This document shows positions 17,023 through 22,136 of a DNA stretch of 33,113 nucleotides, one piece after another. This stretch comes from a virus. Under the pieces are notes generated by a model. It did not search any database. It had not been told where the DNA came from and saw only the letters and a program-made list of their open reading frames with translations. Both the position numbers and the translations under genes were made by a program. The DNA lies in IMG/VR virus record IMGVR_UViG_3300020446_000042, positions 1-33,113 of that record; one strand, written 5' to 3'. Positions within the stretch are counted from its first letter, which is position 1, and each line of letters starts with the position of its first letter.

Positions 17023-17472
17023 ATGCCCCTCATTGGTAATCCTATCACTGCAAATTTTCAAAGCAGACCTGCTACCCAAGAGTTTAACGGTAACGGGTCT
17101 ACAACCACGTTTACCCTGAATCAAACGGTAACTCAGGAAGATATCATCGTATCTGTAGATGGTGTCGTACAGGAAAGTGTTGATGCGTTCACTGTGCCAG
17201 ACGGTACAACACTCACCTTTACTGCAGCACCGTCAAGCGGAACTGGTAATATATTCGTAATTTACATGGGTGTATCTGCAGCGTCTGTAACACCTGCAGC
17301 AGAAAACAAAGGTACGTTTAAGGCAAGCGGTATCTTCCGTACCAACGCACAAACACTCAGTTCCAACACAACCATTTTGGCAACAGAGAACGCTAACGTA
17401 ACAGGGCCACTTACAGTAGCCAGCGGTGTGACACTCACCGTTGAATCTGGTGGTACATTGGTGACGCTATGA
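17023..17472 (+). CDS. Fibre-adaptor-like structural protein (copy 1)
   Basis: 149 residues. It begins MPLIGNPITANFQSR, contains FNGNGSTTTFTLNQTV and IIVSVDGVVQESVDAFTVP, and a region with TLTFTAAPSSGTGNIFVIYM, and ends with a β-helix-like segment (GPLTVASGVTLTVESGG). The central domain resembles N-terminal domains of phage fibres that dock to the virion. The gene at 19963 has the same layout (MP-x-IG start, V-x-V-x-N/DGV strand, GP-I/L-T...VTV end), so the two look homologous. AAGGA at 17011-17015 gives the ribosome site. Its stop overlaps the first GDLA cassette by four bases (ATGA). Confidence 0.75.
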   Translation: MPLIGNPITANFQSRPATQEFNGNGSTTTFTLNQTVTQEDIIVSVDGVVQESVDAFTVPDGTTLTFTAAPSSGTGNIFVIYMGVSAASVTPAAENKGTFKASGIFRTNAQTLSSNTTILATENANVTGPLTVASGVTLTVESGGTLVTL

Positions 17473-17867
17473 GTACGTTGAAAGCAGATACAATTCAGAA
17501 CACCAGTGGCGGTGCGGCTACGCTGACTAAGCAACACGCAGCAAAACATTTTGTTATTTACGATAACACTGACTCATCCAGAGCAATACAAAATAGTTTA
17601 AATTGCAGTTCTTTATCTGATGTAGGCACTGGGCAAACGTCAGTATCTTATGCAAATAATTTTTCTAATACAAAGTATACACATGGGGGTGCAGCCGCGT
17701 GGGACGGTGGTGATATAGTATCAGCAGCCCTTCAAAATGCTGCAACAAAAACTAGTGATATAACAACTTCTGCGATTGAACTATCTACTAGATATGTGAC
17801 TGCAAGCTCTGCGGGTGTTTATGACTATGACTACTCACAAAACACCTCGTTAGGAGACCTAGCATGA
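17469..17867 (+). CDS. GDLA cassette protein 1 (type A head)
   Basis: 132 residues, first of seven paralogues. Head: LKADTIQNTSGGAATLTKQHAAK, shared with cassette 5 (LTKQHAAK). The middle has NSLNCSSLSDVGTGQTSVSY, the family core pattern S/D-x-x-N-x-x-S-L/A-x-D-x-GTG. The rest is Ser/Thr/Ala-rich and β-prone, and the protein ends NTSLGDLA. No membrane segment, Cys pair or enzymatic motif is seen. I infer a distal fibre or receptor-binding piece because of its place between fibre genes. Its last codons (GGAGAC at 17853-17858) provide the ribosome site of cassette 2, whose ATG overlaps this stop by four bases. Confidence 0.75.
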   Translation: MSTLKADTIQNTSGGAATLTKQHAAKHFVIYDNTDSSRAIQNSLNCSSLSDVGTGQTSVSYANNFSNTKYTHGGAAAWDGGDIVSAALQNAATKTSDITTSAIELSTRYVTASSAGVYDYDYSQNTSLGDLA

Positions 17868-18304
17868 GTACAATTCTTGTAAACACACTCACTGGCACAA
17901 GCACTGCTGGCTCTATCTCTGTTACAGGCGAAGGTAACAGCACAACAACTAATCTCCAGCAGGGGTTGGCGAAGGCTTGGGTAACGCACACACACGCAGA
18001 CTCTGTTGATGACTCATTTAATGTATCAACTATCGGAGATTCTGGAACAGGGTTATATATATGTAATTTCACTTCAAATATGAACTCAACTAAATACATT
18101 GTTGGTAGTGCTGGAGCCGTTTATGAAACAAACAGTAGTCGTGGTGGAGATTTTTCTGGCATGGATATGGGCGGTGGTGTAACAGATAAAAGAGCCACTG
18201 ACCATTGTGACGTAGCTGTACAAGCGGGTTCAACTGCTTCAGGTAATGCGGTTTTGGCTGACCGTGATTGGTCGATGCACATATTTCACGGAGATTTAGC
18301 ATAA
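17864..18304 (+). CDS. GDLA cassette protein 2 (type B head)
   Basis: 146 residues, the longest cassette. Head: ILVNTLTGTSTAGSISVTGE followed by GNSTTTNLQQGLAKAWV; cassette 6 has nearly the same head and cassette 4 a shortened one (ATTNLAQGLAKAW). Core: DDSFNVSTIGDSGTGLYICN then FTSNMNSTKYIVG. The distal part is unlike the other cassettes (GGDFSGMDMGGGVTDKRATD). It ends MHIFHGDLA. GGAGA at 18290-18294, inside the GDLA codons, lies nine bases before the next ATG, which overlaps this TAA by one base. A role as a fibre-tip component is inferred. Confidence 0.75.
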   Translation: MSTILVNTLTGTSTAGSISVTGEGNSTTTNLQQGLAKAWVTHTHADSVDDSFNVSTIGDSGTGLYICNFTSNMNSTKYIVGSAGAVYETNSSRGGDFSGMDMGGGVTDKRATDHCDVAVQAGSTASGNAVLADRDWSMHIFHGDLA

Positions 18305-18699
18305 TGGCTGGCAAAATTGTAGCAGACCAACTAGAACACAGCACTGTAGGGTCACTTGATACGCAGTACGTTGTGAATGGTAGTTCAAAAGCTTGGATGC
18401 ATGAACTTCATGCAACAGTTTATGATAGTTTGAATGTAAGTTCAGCAACTGATGGTGGAAGTGGAGATACAGTAATGAATTTTTCTTCTGCAATGAACAA
18501 TAGCTTGTATGCAAATCATGGTGGTGGACTTGATGCTAACATAGGTACAAACAGCGGTTATATGGGTTATCAAGCTGCACATTTTGACCATCAAGTTAGA
18601 ACAACAACTGCTTGTAATCCTAGAAAAGGGTTTTACACTAGCACTGGTGGATTTGGAGATTATATAAGTAGTACAGTAATATTTGGGGATTTAGCATGA
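18304..18699 (+). CDS. GDLA cassette protein 3 (type C head)
   Basis: 131 residues from the ATG at 18304, which overlaps the upstream TAA and has GGAGA nine bases before it; an in-frame ATG at 18268 lacks support. Head: AGKIVADQLEHSTVGSLDTQ then VVNGSSKAWM. Core: DSLNVSSATDGGSGDTVMNF followed by SSAMNNSLYANHGGG. The distal part is His/Gly/Tyr-rich (YQAAHFDHQVR), and the end is VIFGDLA, with GGGGAT codons instead of GGAGA. The ATG of the next, unrelated gene overlaps its TGA by four bases. Confidence 0.75.
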   Translation: MAGKIVADQLEHSTVGSLDTQYVVNGSSKAWMHELHATVYDSLNVSSATDGGSGDTVMNFSSAMNNSLYANHGGGLDANIGTNSGYMGYQAAHFDHQVRTTTACNPRKGFYTSTGGFGDYISSTVIFGDLA

Positions 18700-19172
18700 T
18701 TAAAACACCTAAATTTAAAAATACACATTTATGGGATAGACTGTGCTGGGCAAAAGAAAACCTAGAAGGCTATCAGTCGGAGTACCGTGTGGTCTACGAG
18801 GACAGCATTGATGAGTGCGCTAAGGTGCTTGTACCAGACCCCAACTGGATGGCTTGTGCATTGCAAGGTGGTATACTACCCCCGGTTTGGGTGTACTGGG
18901 AACTTGCAAAGGACGAGGCAGAACCAGACTTCAAGAAACATACTCGTGGCTATCTGTTGCATCAGACAGAGCCAGTGGAAGCTATGACAGAAGAACAGGC
19001 GATTGAGTACCTGATTATGAAAGACTGCCCCCAACACGTTTGGCGGGATTGGAATACAGGCAACAAACCCAAGATGGTTATTTGCCGCAAGGAACAGTTA
19101 CCAAGCACTAGAGAGTGGCGCAATGCTTGGAAAATAACTGAAGAATTAATCGTCACTGATTTAGCAGCCTAA
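18696..19172 (+). CDS. Conserved marine-phage protein in the fibre region (possible fibre-assembly factor)
   Basis: 158 residues, Trp-rich and globular, not β-fibre-like. Blocks: ENLEGYQSEYRVVYED, KVLVPDPNWMACALQGG, PVWVYWELAKDEAEPDFKKH, MTEEQAIEYLIMKDCPQHVW and KMVICRKEQLPSTREWRNAW. I remember this family (PDPNWM, EEQAIEYLIMKD, REWRNAW) from uncultured marine phages, always next to fibre genes and unassigned. The next gene's product has a related R-x-F-R-x-A-W block. Location and globular composition suggest a fibre chaperone or assembly factor, which is inference. Its ATG overlaps the stop of cassette 3. Confidence 0.75.
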   Translation: MIKTPKFKNTHLWDRLCWAKENLEGYQSEYRVVYEDSIDECAKVLVPDPNWMACALQGGILPPVWVYWELAKDEAEPDFKKHTRGYLLHQTEPVEAMTEEQAIEYLIMKDCPQHVWRDWNTGNKPKMVICRKEQLPSTREWRNAWKITEELIVTDLAA

Positions 19173-19185
19173 GAGGAGAAACCTA

Positions 19186-19557
19186 ATGGCAACAACATAC
19201 ATCGTAGACAAGGACGGGAATCAGGTTGATGCTTCTACAGTTACCGTTCCTTCTGACCGTCACTTTCGGGGTGCATGGTCATTGAGTGGCAAAGTCATAT
19301 CCGAAGATATGGACGCAGCCAAAGTAATCTTCAAGGACAAAATCCGTGAAGTTCGTGCGCCTCTGCTCGAAGCAGAAGACGTGGTGTACATGAAGGCACT
19401 TGAAGCTGGTGACACAGATGCACAGGCTGCATCAGTCACTAAGAAGAACGCTCTTCGTGATGCCCCAGCAGCATCTGCAATTACTAACGCAGATACAATC
19501 GCAAAGCTGAAGGCAGCTTGGGATACAAGTGTACTAGGTGACAGCCCGTACGCATAA
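19186..19557 (+). CDS. Conserved helical protein in the fibre region (R-x-F-R-x-A-W family)
   Basis: 123 residues. The N-terminal 30 residues form a short β region (TYIVDKDGNQVDASTVTVPS), followed by DRHFRGAWSLSGKVISEDMD, then helices (AAKVIFKDKIREVRAPLLEA, VYMKALEAGDTDAQ, KKNALRDAPA) and an end with LKAAWDTSVLGDSPYA. I recall similar DRxFRxAW proteins beside tail-fibre genes of many marine phages, function unassigned. The ribosome site AGAGGAGA lies upstream. Shared motif and adjacency with the 18696 product suggest a joint role in fibre maturation or attachment. Confidence 0.75.
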   Translation: MATTYIVDKDGNQVDASTVTVPSDRHFRGAWSLSGKVISEDMDAAKVIFKDKIREVRAPLLEAEDVVYMKALEAGDTDAQAASVTKKNALRDAPAASAITNADTIAKLKAAWDTSVLGDSPYA

Positions 19558-19567
19558 GGAGTGAGAG

Positions 19568-19963
19568 ATGGCACTGACCAATCTTACAAAAGGCACGGTT
19601 GTTGGCTCTGAAGGAGGGTCAGCAACCACTAACCTTGCTCAGGGGTTGGCAAAGGCTTGGGCAGATTACTCAGGTTCAGGAACTACTTTTACCGACAGTT
19701 TTAATTGTGCATCTGCAACAGATAACGGGACGGGTGATTACACCATAACAATTACAAACGATATGGCTAGTGGTAATTTTTCTTTAACAGGAAACTTGGG
19801 TGCAAGTCAGGCTGGAGATGAGCATACTTTAACTTTTTTATCCACCGATACATCCGCTGGTTCTCGTAGGATTTTTTCAAGTACAAACTATGAACCGGGT
19901 TCTGCAAATGGCACTCCAAGAGATAACATAGTAAATGCAGTATTTCACGGAGATTTAGCGTAA
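19568..19963 (+). CDS. GDLA cassette protein 4 (shortened type B head)
   Basis: 131 residues. Head: ALTNLTKGTVVGSEGGSATT then NLAQGLAKAWADYSGSG. Core: TDSFNCASATDNGTGDYTIT followed by TNDMASGNFSLTG. The distal part is charged and Ser-rich (AGSRRIFSSTNYEPGS). It ends AVFHGDLA. Upstream it has a conventional AAGGAG rather than a GDLA-embedded site, because the preceding gene is not a cassette. Its own GGAGA (19949-19953) serves the adaptor copy 2, whose ATG overlaps the TAA by one base. Confidence 0.75.
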   Translation: MALTNLTKGTVVGSEGGSATTNLAQGLAKAWADYSGSGTTFTDSFNCASATDNGTGDYTITITNDMASGNFSLTGNLGASQAGDEHTLTFLSTDTSAGSRRIFSSTNYEPGSANGTPRDNIVNAVFHGDLA

Positions 19964-20421
19964 TGCCATATATAGGAAAATCCCCAGAGTTCGGTGTTCG
20001 CAACCGCTTTGTCTACCAAGCAACTGCTGGTCAGACTAGCTTTAGTGGTAGTGACGCAGACAGTAAAACACTGACCTACGCAGATAGTCTGTACGTAGAT
20101 GTGTATCAGAATGGTGTGCTGCTAAAACCGGGTACAGACTACGCTGCTACAACAGGCACTAGCGTTGTACTGGTCACAGGGGCATCCCTGAACGACATAG
20201 TTGAGATGGTAGTCTACGATGCGTTCAGCATTGCGAACTCGTACACCAAGACTGAATCGGATACTCGCTATCCATTCAAGGGCAACAACAGCATCATCCG
20301 TCTCAACGGTCAGACTATCAGCGCAGACATTACGATTGACTCTGATGAGAATGGCGTGAGTGCAGGGCCAATCACACAGAACGCAACCGTGACTGTTAAC
20401 GGGTATTGGAGCATCGTATGA
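19963..20421 (+). CDS. Fibre-adaptor-like structural protein (copy 2)
   Basis: 152 residues. It starts MPYIGKSPEFGVRNRFVYQA, then TAGQTSFSGSDADSKTLTY and LYVDVYQNGVLLKPGTDYAA, a block I remember at the N-termini of marine phage fibres. It continues with VLVTGASLNDIVEMVVYDAF and SIANSYTKTESDTRYPFKGN, and ends with GPITQNATVTVNGYWSIV. The layout matches the protein encoded at 17023, and both are followed by an LTKQHAAK-type cassette with a four-base ATGA overlap. A virion-docking fibre base is the likely role. Confidence 0.78.
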   Translation: MPYIGKSPEFGVRNRFVYQATAGQTSFSGSDADSKTLTYADSLYVDVYQNGVLLKPGTDYAATTGTSVVLVTGASLNDIVEMVVYDAFSIANSYTKTESDTRYPFKGNNSIIRLNGQTISADITIDSDENGVSAGPITQNATVTVNGYWSIV

Positions 20422-20789
20422 CCAGTGTATTGAATGTAGATACTATTGCAGATAAGGCTGGCACTGGCCCTGTTGAGTTGACTAAACAACACGCAGCAAA
20501 GATGTGGGCAAAATACGATGCTGGTTCAACACTAAATGATAGTTTTAATGTGGCTACATTAACAGACTCTGGAACTGGATTGTTTGATTTAGCTTTTACA
20601 AACAGCATGAATAATGCAAATTTTGCAGGTCAAGCCGAAGGTAATAACAGTGGTTATTTTCCTATGTCAAGTAGTGAAACAACTGGGGAAAACACAACCA
20701 GTAAATTTAGAGACACCCGCAGAAACACATCTCATACGGCTTTTGATTCTACCCTTAACAGATGTAGCGTACACGGAGACCTCGCATAA
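20418..20789 (+). CDS. GDLA cassette protein 5 (type A head)
   Basis: 123 residues from the ATG at 20418, chosen because it overlaps the upstream TGA (ATGA) as in cassette 1. Head: SVLNVDTIADKAGTGPVELT then KQHAAKMWAKYD, matching cassette 1 (both LTKQHAAK). Core: NDSFNVATLTDSGTGLFDLA then FTNSMNNANFAGQ. The distal part is Ser/Thr/Arg-rich (TSKFRDTRRNTSHTAF). It ends CSVHGDLA. GGAGA at 20775-20779 is the ribosome site for cassette 6. Confidence 0.75.
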   Translation: MTSVLNVDTIADKAGTGPVELTKQHAAKMWAKYDAGSTLNDSFNVATLTDSGTGLFDLAFTNSMNNANFAGQAEGNNSGYFPMSSSETTGENTTSKFRDTRRNTSHTAFDSTLNRCSVHGDLA

Positions 20790-21181
20790 TGGCAAGCATA
20801 CTTAAAGTAGATACAATTACGGGTGTAGCCACCGCTGGCTCTATTGCAGTTACTGGCGAGGGCAACTCAACCACGACTAACCTGCAACAGGGGTTAGTAA
20901 AATCTTTCGTAGAAGGAGCTAATCACGCTGCTGGAGCTATAAATGGTGACACGTTTAATATTGCATCATACGTAGATTACACAACAGGCGTATCAGAATT
21001 TAACGTTACCAATGCTATGGGTAACGCAGATTATCCTGTTATGTGTAGTTCTCAAGCAAATCATGTTTATCAAAGTCTTGCAATTAGCACAACTGTTTAC
21101 AGGGCTTCAACTATTGGACTAGGAACTTCAAGTCTTGCTGATGGTGACAATGCTGCAATGATTACAGGAGACCTAGCGTAA
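20789..21181 (+). CDS. GDLA cassette protein 6 (type B head)
   Basis: 130 residues. Head: SILKVDTITGVATAGSIAVT then GEGNSTTTNLQQGLVKSFVE, near-identical in protein to cassette 2, though silent sites differ widely. Core: GDTFNIASYVDYTTGVSEFN then VTNAMGNADYPVM, where the usual GTG has become TTG. The distal part is SQANHVYQSLAISTTVYRAS. It ends AAMITGDLA, lacking the His seen before GDLA in cassettes 2, 4, 5 and 7. GGAGA at 21167-21171 serves cassette 7. Confidence 0.75.
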   Translation: MASILKVDTITGVATAGSIAVTGEGNSTTTNLQQGLVKSFVEGANHAAGAINGDTFNIASYVDYTTGVSEFNVTNAMGNADYPVMCSSQANHVYQSLAISTTVYRASTIGLGTSSLADGDNAAMITGDLA

Positions 21182-21579
21182 TGGCAAGCGAACTGAGAGT
21201 AAACACCCTGAAGGATGCCAGCGGTAACAACTCCATTGGCATGAGTACGGTTGCAGGGGGAGTATCAAAATCTTTTGTAAATTTTGATATGGCAGGTACT
21301 ACCGCAAGGGACTCATTTAACCTATCAAGTTTGACAGATAGAGCAACTGGACAATTCACTGCAAATTTATCATCGGCACATGATAGTGCTGGTTATTCAT
21401 GTGTGGGCAATTCAAATTCTTATGCTGGGGATAGTTTTCAAGGGGCAGGGTCTTTTGGGCTACATACAAATCATATATTTACAAGCACATCAAGTGCTTA
21501 TGGAATGAGTAGTTACACTGGTTCTGCTTATGTTGATGCATCACATAATAGTACAGCTACGCATGGAGACTTAGCATGA
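21181..21579 (+). CDS. GDLA cassette protein 7 (type C head)
   Basis: 132 residues. Head: ASELRVNTLKDASGNNSIGM then STVAGGVSKSFVNFD, which aligns loosely with cassette 3 (V-x-G-x-S/V-SK-A/S-W/F). Core: RDSFNLSSLTDRATGQFTAN then LSSAHDSAGYSCVG. The distal part is Ser/Tyr/Gly-rich (SSAYGMSSYTGSAYVDASHN). It ends STATHGDLA. GGAGA at 21565-21569 lies six bases before the ATG of the terminal fibre-like gene, which overlaps this TGA by four bases. Confidence 0.75.
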   Translation: MASELRVNTLKDASGNNSIGMSTVAGGVSKSFVNFDMAGTTARDSFNLSSLTDRATGQFTANLSSAHDSAGYSCVGNSNSYAGDSFQGAGSFGLHTNHIFTSTSSAYGMSSYTGSAYVDASHNSTATHGDLA

Positions 21580-22136
21580 GTAAAGCAGCAGAACTAGCGG
21601 CATTCATAGGTGGCGGAAGTATTGGGGGTATTGTTAATGAACAACTTGCCATGCTATGCGATGGTCAAAATTACACTGTTTCTAGCGGAACTTACACCCC
21701 TACAAATGTTACTGCGTCACAAGCCTTAGATAACACTTCTACCACTATAACTGGGTCTCAAATTTCATATACTCCACCATCAGGAACGGTTTGCGTAATT
21801 TACGATTTTACTCTTCATTTTACTTTTTTTGATGCTAACGGTATTGCTCATTTTAGATTTTTTATTGATTCAAATGAAGTGACAAATCAAAGGCTTAATT
21901 TAAGTGGGCAATACCCAGAATTTGTGACAACTTTAAGATATGTAATTCCCATTGGCGGTTCAGCAGACACCGCAACTGGCAGACAGGCTACATGGACATC
22001 CGCAAAAACTCTCAAAATTGAATGTAGGGAATACGGCTCATCAAATGAAGCGTACCTTCATGCTACTAAATATTGGGATGGTGCAGGCTCTGCTCAATTT
22101 CATCAGCCTAAGTTAACTATTACGGCGTTGGGTTAG
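21576..22136 (+). CDS. Terminal fibre-like protein (β-sandwich tip candidate)
   Basis: 186 residues. It begins MSKAAELAAFIGGGSIGGIV, a start I remember on many marine phage fibre-tip proteins. The body is β-rich (TITGSQISYTPPSGTVCVIY, DFTLHFTFFDANGIAHFRFF, then VTTLRYVIPIGGSADTATG) and ends with FHQPKLTITALG. The pattern resembles a jelly-roll or C1q-like tip in which an ordered strand run carries ligand-binding loops. It lacks the GDLA end. It closes the fibre region before the ejection-protein genes. Confidence 0.72.
   Translation: MSKAAELAAFIGGGSIGGIVNEQLAMLCDGQNYTVSSGTYTPTNVTASQALDNTSTTITGSQISYTPPSGTVCVIYDFTLHFTFFDANGIAHFRFFIDSNEVTNQRLNLSGQYPEFVTTLRYVIPIGGSADTATGRQATWTSAKTLKIECREYGSSNEAYLHATKYWDGAGSAQFHQPKLTITALG

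Follow-up and report, generated by a model that had tools for sequence, protein, structure and literature searches.

The virus record IMGVR_UViG_3300020446_000042 of IMG/VR, analysed here as a single 33,113-nucleotide strand that we call the window, is a 33.1 kb record of an HMO-2011-like podovirus, as judged from its portal protein, which is 45-52% identical to the portals of HMO-2011, pelagiphage HTVC033P and roseophages. Between 17469 and 21579 the window carries seven short genes (123-146 amino acids), referred to below as cassettes, and 7/7 match the profile PHROG 11355, tail fiber protein, with E values from 1.7e-5 to 1.7e-18; against Pfam, no cassette gave a match above that database's cut-offs. 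Cassettes 2-7 have just 21-33% identity to cassette 1, yet all seven share the C-terminus Gly-Asp-Leu-Ala (GDLA). The codons of this tail very probably serve as the Shine-Dalgarno (SD) signal of the next gene while the residues they encode are also kept, so that selection would act at both levels on the same 12 bases. The features of the array are as follows (ORF, open reading frame).

17469..17867, + strand: cassette 1, tail-fibre protein, end SLGDLA (ORF; PHROG 11355 tail fiber, E=8e-12)
17853..17863, + strand: GGAGACCTAGC, GDLA codons and putative SD for 17864; ATGA joint, 6 bases after GGAGA
17864..18304, + strand: cassette 2, end FHGDLA (ORF; PHROG 11355)
18290..18300, + strand: GGAGATTTAGC, GDLA codons and putative SD for 18304; TAATG joint, 9 bases
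18304..18699, + strand: cassette 3, end IFGDLA (ORF; PHROG 11355)
18685..18695, + strand: GGGGATTTAGC, putative weaker SD variant for 18696; ATGA joint, 6 bases
18696..19172, + strand: unrelated follower gene, end TDLAA, orthologue of an HMO-2011 gene (86% identity)
19568..19963, + strand: cassette 4, end FHGDLA (ORF; PHROG 11355)
19949..19959, + strand: GGAGATTTAGC, GDLA codons and putative SD for 19963; TAATG joint, 9 bases
19963..20421, + strand: unrelated follower gene, end WSIV, whose own end TGGAGCATCGTATGA supplies GGAG for cassette 5
20418..20789, + strand: cassette 5, end VHGDLA (PHROG 11355; structure modelled)
20775..20785, + strand: GGAGACCTCGC, GDLA codons and putative SD for 20789; TAATG joint
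20789..21181, + strand: cassette 6, end ITGDLA (ORF; PHROG 11355)
21167..21177, + strand: GGAGACCTAGC, GDLA codons and putative SD for 21181; TAATG joint
21181..21579, + strand: cassette 7, end THGDLA (ORF; PHROG 11355)
21565..21575, + strand: GGAGACTTAGC, GDLA codons and putative SD for 21576; ATGA joint
21576..22136, + strand: unrelated follower gene, MSKAAEL..., the commonest non-cassette follower among relatives

The joints were found to be as described in the initial annotation, which had placed GGAGA at 17853, 18290, 19949, 20775, 21167 and 21565, with a GGGGAT variant in cassette 3 (its GGGGA starts at 18685), and had read the Leu codons as YTM and the Ala codons as GCR. In 7/7 joints the stop overlaps the next start as ATGA or TAATG; the distance from GGAGA or GGGGA to the ATG is 6 bases at the three ATGA joints (17864, 18696 and 21576) and 9 bases at the four TAATG joints (18304, 19963, 20789 and 21181). 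Seven copies of the motif GGRGAYYTNGC occur in the window, each of them + strand and located at the end of a cassette; shuffled sequence gave an expectation of 0.21 copies, with a maximum of 1 in 100 shuffles. The genes starting at 18696, 19963 and 21576 are not cassettes. Non-cassette neighbours also hide an SD in their last codons, as seen at 20407-20421 (WSIV, read from TGG AGC ATC GTA TGA) and at 17458-17472 (LVTL, read from TTG GTG ACG CTA TGA). A hairpin considered in GGAGACCTC was dropped, since its loop would be just 2 bases.

Relatives were gathered with an iterated profile from viral contigs, bacterial genomes and phage records. The 361 loci searched yielded 754 distinct cassette ends, which gave 683 clusters after joining of ends at least 85% alike. 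In a first, close set the GDLA end was present in 365 of 388 cassettes and in 0 non-cassette ORFs. As single queries, window cassette 7 recovered just 3 loci and Mel-JY33 cassette 2 found no relatives in viral contigs, and the pattern CAYGGNGAYYTNGCNTAA has too few fixed bases for a collection-wide scan. The next start lies at offset -4 or -1 (ATGA or TRATG overlaps) in 378 of the 683 clusters, and the SD duplex energy at these joints was <= -4 kcal/mol in 133/137 cases at -4 and 238/241 at -1, all inside the coding sequence. Ends were termed near when the next gene started at or before +4 and far when no start occurred within 20 bases.

Codon choice at the terminal Gly carries the main evidence. 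Among 305 distinct cassettes of the close set this codon is GGA in 294 and GGG in 10, and never GGC or GGT, while the best conserved internal Gly column of the same set (n=290) has GGT 109, GGA 96, GGC 52 and GGG 33. In the full set, GDLA-type ends with a near gene use GGA 336 times and GGG 13 times (349 clusters, 102 loci); the combination named in the initial annotation as evidence against its proposal, a GDLA end written with GGC or GGT and closely followed by a gene, occurs in 0 of these clusters. The peptide variants GELA, GGLA and GVLA retain GGAG or GGGG. The same signal stands ahead of cassettes (GGA 191/198) and ahead of unrelated genes (133/135), as had been claimed.

The initial annotation had also predicted that GGA would be kept where a gene follows and would relax where none does, and this comparison strongly supports its reading of the GGAGAY codons as a Shine-Dalgarno signal. 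In marine relatives, near ends of the types FGD, FGDN, FGDQ and FGDV have GGA 42, GGG 7 and GGC 1, and the single GGC (L095) is a tail-parsing artefact, the tail being GGNS with GGA as its first Gly codon. Far ends of the same FGD types have GGC 28, GGT 9, GGA 10 and GGG 2 (GGC or GGT in 37/49); Fisher's test on near versus far gives p = 1.2e-10 for GGA and 1.4e-15 for GGA and GGG together. Several of the far GGA cases (L290, L292, L159, L338, L197 and L342) have an unlisted ATG or GTG near the stop, with an ORF that is short or starts with GTG. Nineteen contigs contain both near and far ends, and 12 of them switch from GGA to GGC or GGT, with 0 in the reverse direction (sign test, about 5e-4). 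The position of the signal, its spacing, the choice of codon and the dependence of that choice on a following gene are thus direct observations.

Two side observations concern the far FGD ends. Where any nearby start is absent, GGC is used in 28/44 (64%) versus 35/255 (14%) inside the same proteins, an excess that perhaps reflects avoidance of an idle Shine-Dalgarno sequence, or shared descent. An AT-rich stretch, TTTGATATACTAAAAGAAAAAACTTATG, common to L216, L221, L257 and other marine contigs, lies after the last cassette and ahead of a 66-codon ORF; from its sequence it looks like a promoter region.

The length of the tail changes together with the gap to the next gene. With the next start at -4 or -1, cassettes carry GDLA (or GDN, GDS or GDQ) and the SD core starts 12 bases ahead of the stop. 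Between 0 and +4 the usual tail is GD, with the core starting 6 bases ahead of the stop, and from +8 to +20 most domains end in FR and have their SD 3' of the stop. An SD was found in just 3/24 joints at +5 to +7. Across all offsets the core stands at a median of 6-10 bases from the ATG; as the gap widens the tail shortens, and the signal-to-start spacing stays roughly constant. Overlapping genes in the same loci that are not cassettes carry an SD in their ends as well (93% at <= -4 kcal/mol, with an AGY Ser codon in every WSIV end listed), which indicates that the principle is general in these phages. In five loci (L110, L111, L119, L139 and L151; offset +3 or +6, ends IFR) cassettes follow one another closely and the next ATG has no SD.

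Several observations weigh against a dual role of the tail or narrow its basis. The relaxation evidence comes from the FGD relatives, since GDLA ends without a close gene are rare (2): the GDLA and GDLL ends of L073 and L026, whose next gene lies 48-55 bases off, both retain GGAGAC, so no relaxation is seen inside the GDLA lineage itself. The far FGD cases are mostly of one locus type, in which the last cassette precedes a conserved 66-amino-acid ORF, and are therefore not fully independent. Eighteen near joints in relatives that lack a Gly tail mostly have no SD, indicating that overlap alone can suffice and that the SD is not obligatory in the family; the SD in the tail, judging from these sequences, likely raises rather than enables translation of the next gene. 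At the terminal Asp, GAC is used in 280/295 ends (95%) versus 42% at a conserved internal Asp, and this excess is accounted for neither by SD pairing nor by the residue. CTC, present in about half of the GDLA ends and far above its internal use, and GCA, forced in ATGA joints only, are likewise in excess of SD and residue needs.

The array can be compared with a known one. The tail-fibre array of HMO-2011 (GU557055), where the record names putative tail fibre proteins only, has the same gene order as the window and the same GDLA-ended cassettes with GGAGAC joints; backbone genes are 67-86% identical and the cassette order is common to both. Most orthologous cassette pairs are alike for the first ~70 residues and then diverge, with GDLA again at the end. 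HMO-2011 differs in that the slots of window cassettes 2 and 6 each hold two unrelated genes, joined by overlaps or short gaps; that of cassette 6 (20789-21181) is occupied in HMO-2011 (locus L008, 6375-7149) by a C1q-domain gene and a small gene. In locus L342 a cassette remnant of 16 codons, still in ATGA overlap with the GDLA end that precedes it, is probably a deletion scar. Slot differences and remnant together fit insertion and loss at joints. The suggestion in the initial annotation that a cassette can be inserted or deleted without breaking expression of its neighbour fits the HMO-2011 synteny and stays short of demonstration.

An alternative is that the 12-17 bases common to every joint are kept, perhaps among other reasons, as a short homology for cassette exchange, with the SD secondary. 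DNA conservation does rise sharply, from 0.2 bit immediately ahead of GGA to ~2 bits within it, and takes in the GAC and CTC preferences that are otherwise without account, and the changed slots of HMO-2011 and the remnant in L342 would suit such a site. We nevertheless consider it unlikely. Leu codons change freely among synonyms, also inside a single genome: of the 75 loci with 3 or more ends, 57 have differing versions of GAYYTNGCN. The near/far codon switch does not require recombination, and unrelated genes without the 12-mer (WSIV and LVTL ends) are joined in the same way.

It is also conceivable that the peptide is a by-product, the DNA of GDLA being kept solely to start and space the following gene. 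Where a close gene is absent, many cassettes terminate in FR and lack the tail, and other, distant phages change the peptide and keep the signal: a Nostoc phage has GSLA (GGGAGC) and GETNA (GGGGAG), Vibrio phages have GGNS (GGAGGC) and GGQQ (GGGGGT), and GRLA is a further variant. Selection on the residues makes this decidedly improbable. Gly-Asp is retained as GGC-GAT at far ends of FGD-type relatives, and across joints GGAG nearly always sits in one and the same frame. In the GDLA lineage Leu is found in 302/304 ends, with all six codons in use (CTC, CTA, TTA, CTT, TTG and CTG), and Ala in 298/304 with three codons; codons at the Leu position that start with T end in C or T in 0/74 cases, versus 193/271 for those that start with C. 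Leu and Ala thus vary synonymously and almost never in residue, which argues that amino-acid selection is present. The initial annotation had left it open whether the peptide is kept wholly or partly because of its DNA; partly holds, and wholly is contradicted by the non-SD codons for Gly-Asp and the residue constraint on Leu and Ala. That GDLA is purely a protein signal or structural tail, with GGA due to codon bias or shared ancestry, would agree with the constraint on Leu and Ala and with Gly-Asp persisting where no gene follows, and is scarcely credible given that terminal Gly codon use is sharply unlike that of the internal conserved Gly, that the codon flips with the following gene within the same contigs, and that tail length tracks the gap. 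A C-terminal degron formed by -LA was also entertained, as a speculative reading.

The proposed dual role of the tail can be placed on a structural model. Cassette 5 was modelled with a mean pLDDT (predicted local distance difference test) of 83 as a beta sandwich in which the last strand ends at His119, and GDLA forms a tail beyond it. The body appears to resemble the C-terminal domain of the phiAB6 tailspike (best Z 9.0 over 92 residues; Foldseek E 6e-3), the Pam1 tailspike (Z 7.6) and the R-pyocin fibre tip (Z 5.0-5.5). Based on this likeness to lectin-like tips, the cassettes are probably small receptor-binding tips. They are unlike those tips in being stand-alone genes with a hidden SD tail, and the sequence identity is 4-13%.

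Putting these elements together, we propose that each cassette would encode a small lectin-like tail-fibre tip domain followed by the GDLA tail beyond the last strand, the GGA-GAY codons of which would be the SD of a gene starting in the overlapping ATGA or TAATG. Ribosomes ending one cassette, or newly recruited there, would start the next gene. Translation initiation would set the codon choice (GGA, never GGC or GGT), and the residues themselves, Gly-Asp in a large part of the broader family and Leu-Ala in the present lineage, would be kept for some structural or assembly reason. Because the signal would travel with the end of the upstream gene, cassettes and unrelated genes could succeed one another with the same joint. 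In this sense we infer translational coupling and modular exchange from the sequences. Tentatively, and with somewhat less than even confidence, the tail might be regarded as a portable dual code, a functional short peptide whose codons supply the start signal of the next gene and so let phages gain, lose or reorder receptor-binding cassettes with neighbours still translated.

Gene ends and spacers were reportedly found to be adapted to the SD of the next gene in work by Eyre-Walker in 1996. Huber et al. (2019, PMC6728339) found an SD inside the upstream gene in roughly half or more of the overlapping pairs of most prokaryote groups; the effect of its removal on reinitiation varied widely. The ATGA and TGATG pairs with an intragenic SD in that study resemble ours in having -4/-1 overlaps, an SD placed in the final codons of the first gene and a unidirectional operon. 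The window differs in having its signal within a nearly invariant tail of four residues that recurs at many tandem genes, and its relatives in that the codon changes according to whether a gene follows; coupling here is what we infer. Averaging over whole genomes, Palleja et al. (2009, PMC2784483) located the SD within the coding end of the upstream gene when the spacer was 1-4 bases and between the genes when it was 9-15, with lower SD frequency at 5-8. The cassette family has the same pattern, and here codon, tail length and peptide all respond in one protein family. Our literature search, which was partial in coverage, found no paper describing this GDLA tail. Shine-Dalgarno signals inside upstream genes are already known; a repeated, putatively portable tail on probable lectin-like fibre-tip cassettes appears, within that search, to be new.

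The use of GGA-GAT with a next gene and GGC-GAT without one, within single phages, is a natural experiment that parts RNA from protein selection at the same bases, and the cassettes offer a ready-made system for measuring the SD contribution to stop-start reinitiation. When tandem phage genes share a conserved C-terminal motif, that motif may in part be a translation signal, and should be read with that caution. If the proposed portability is true, the modularity of the array would be written into the protein's last residues.

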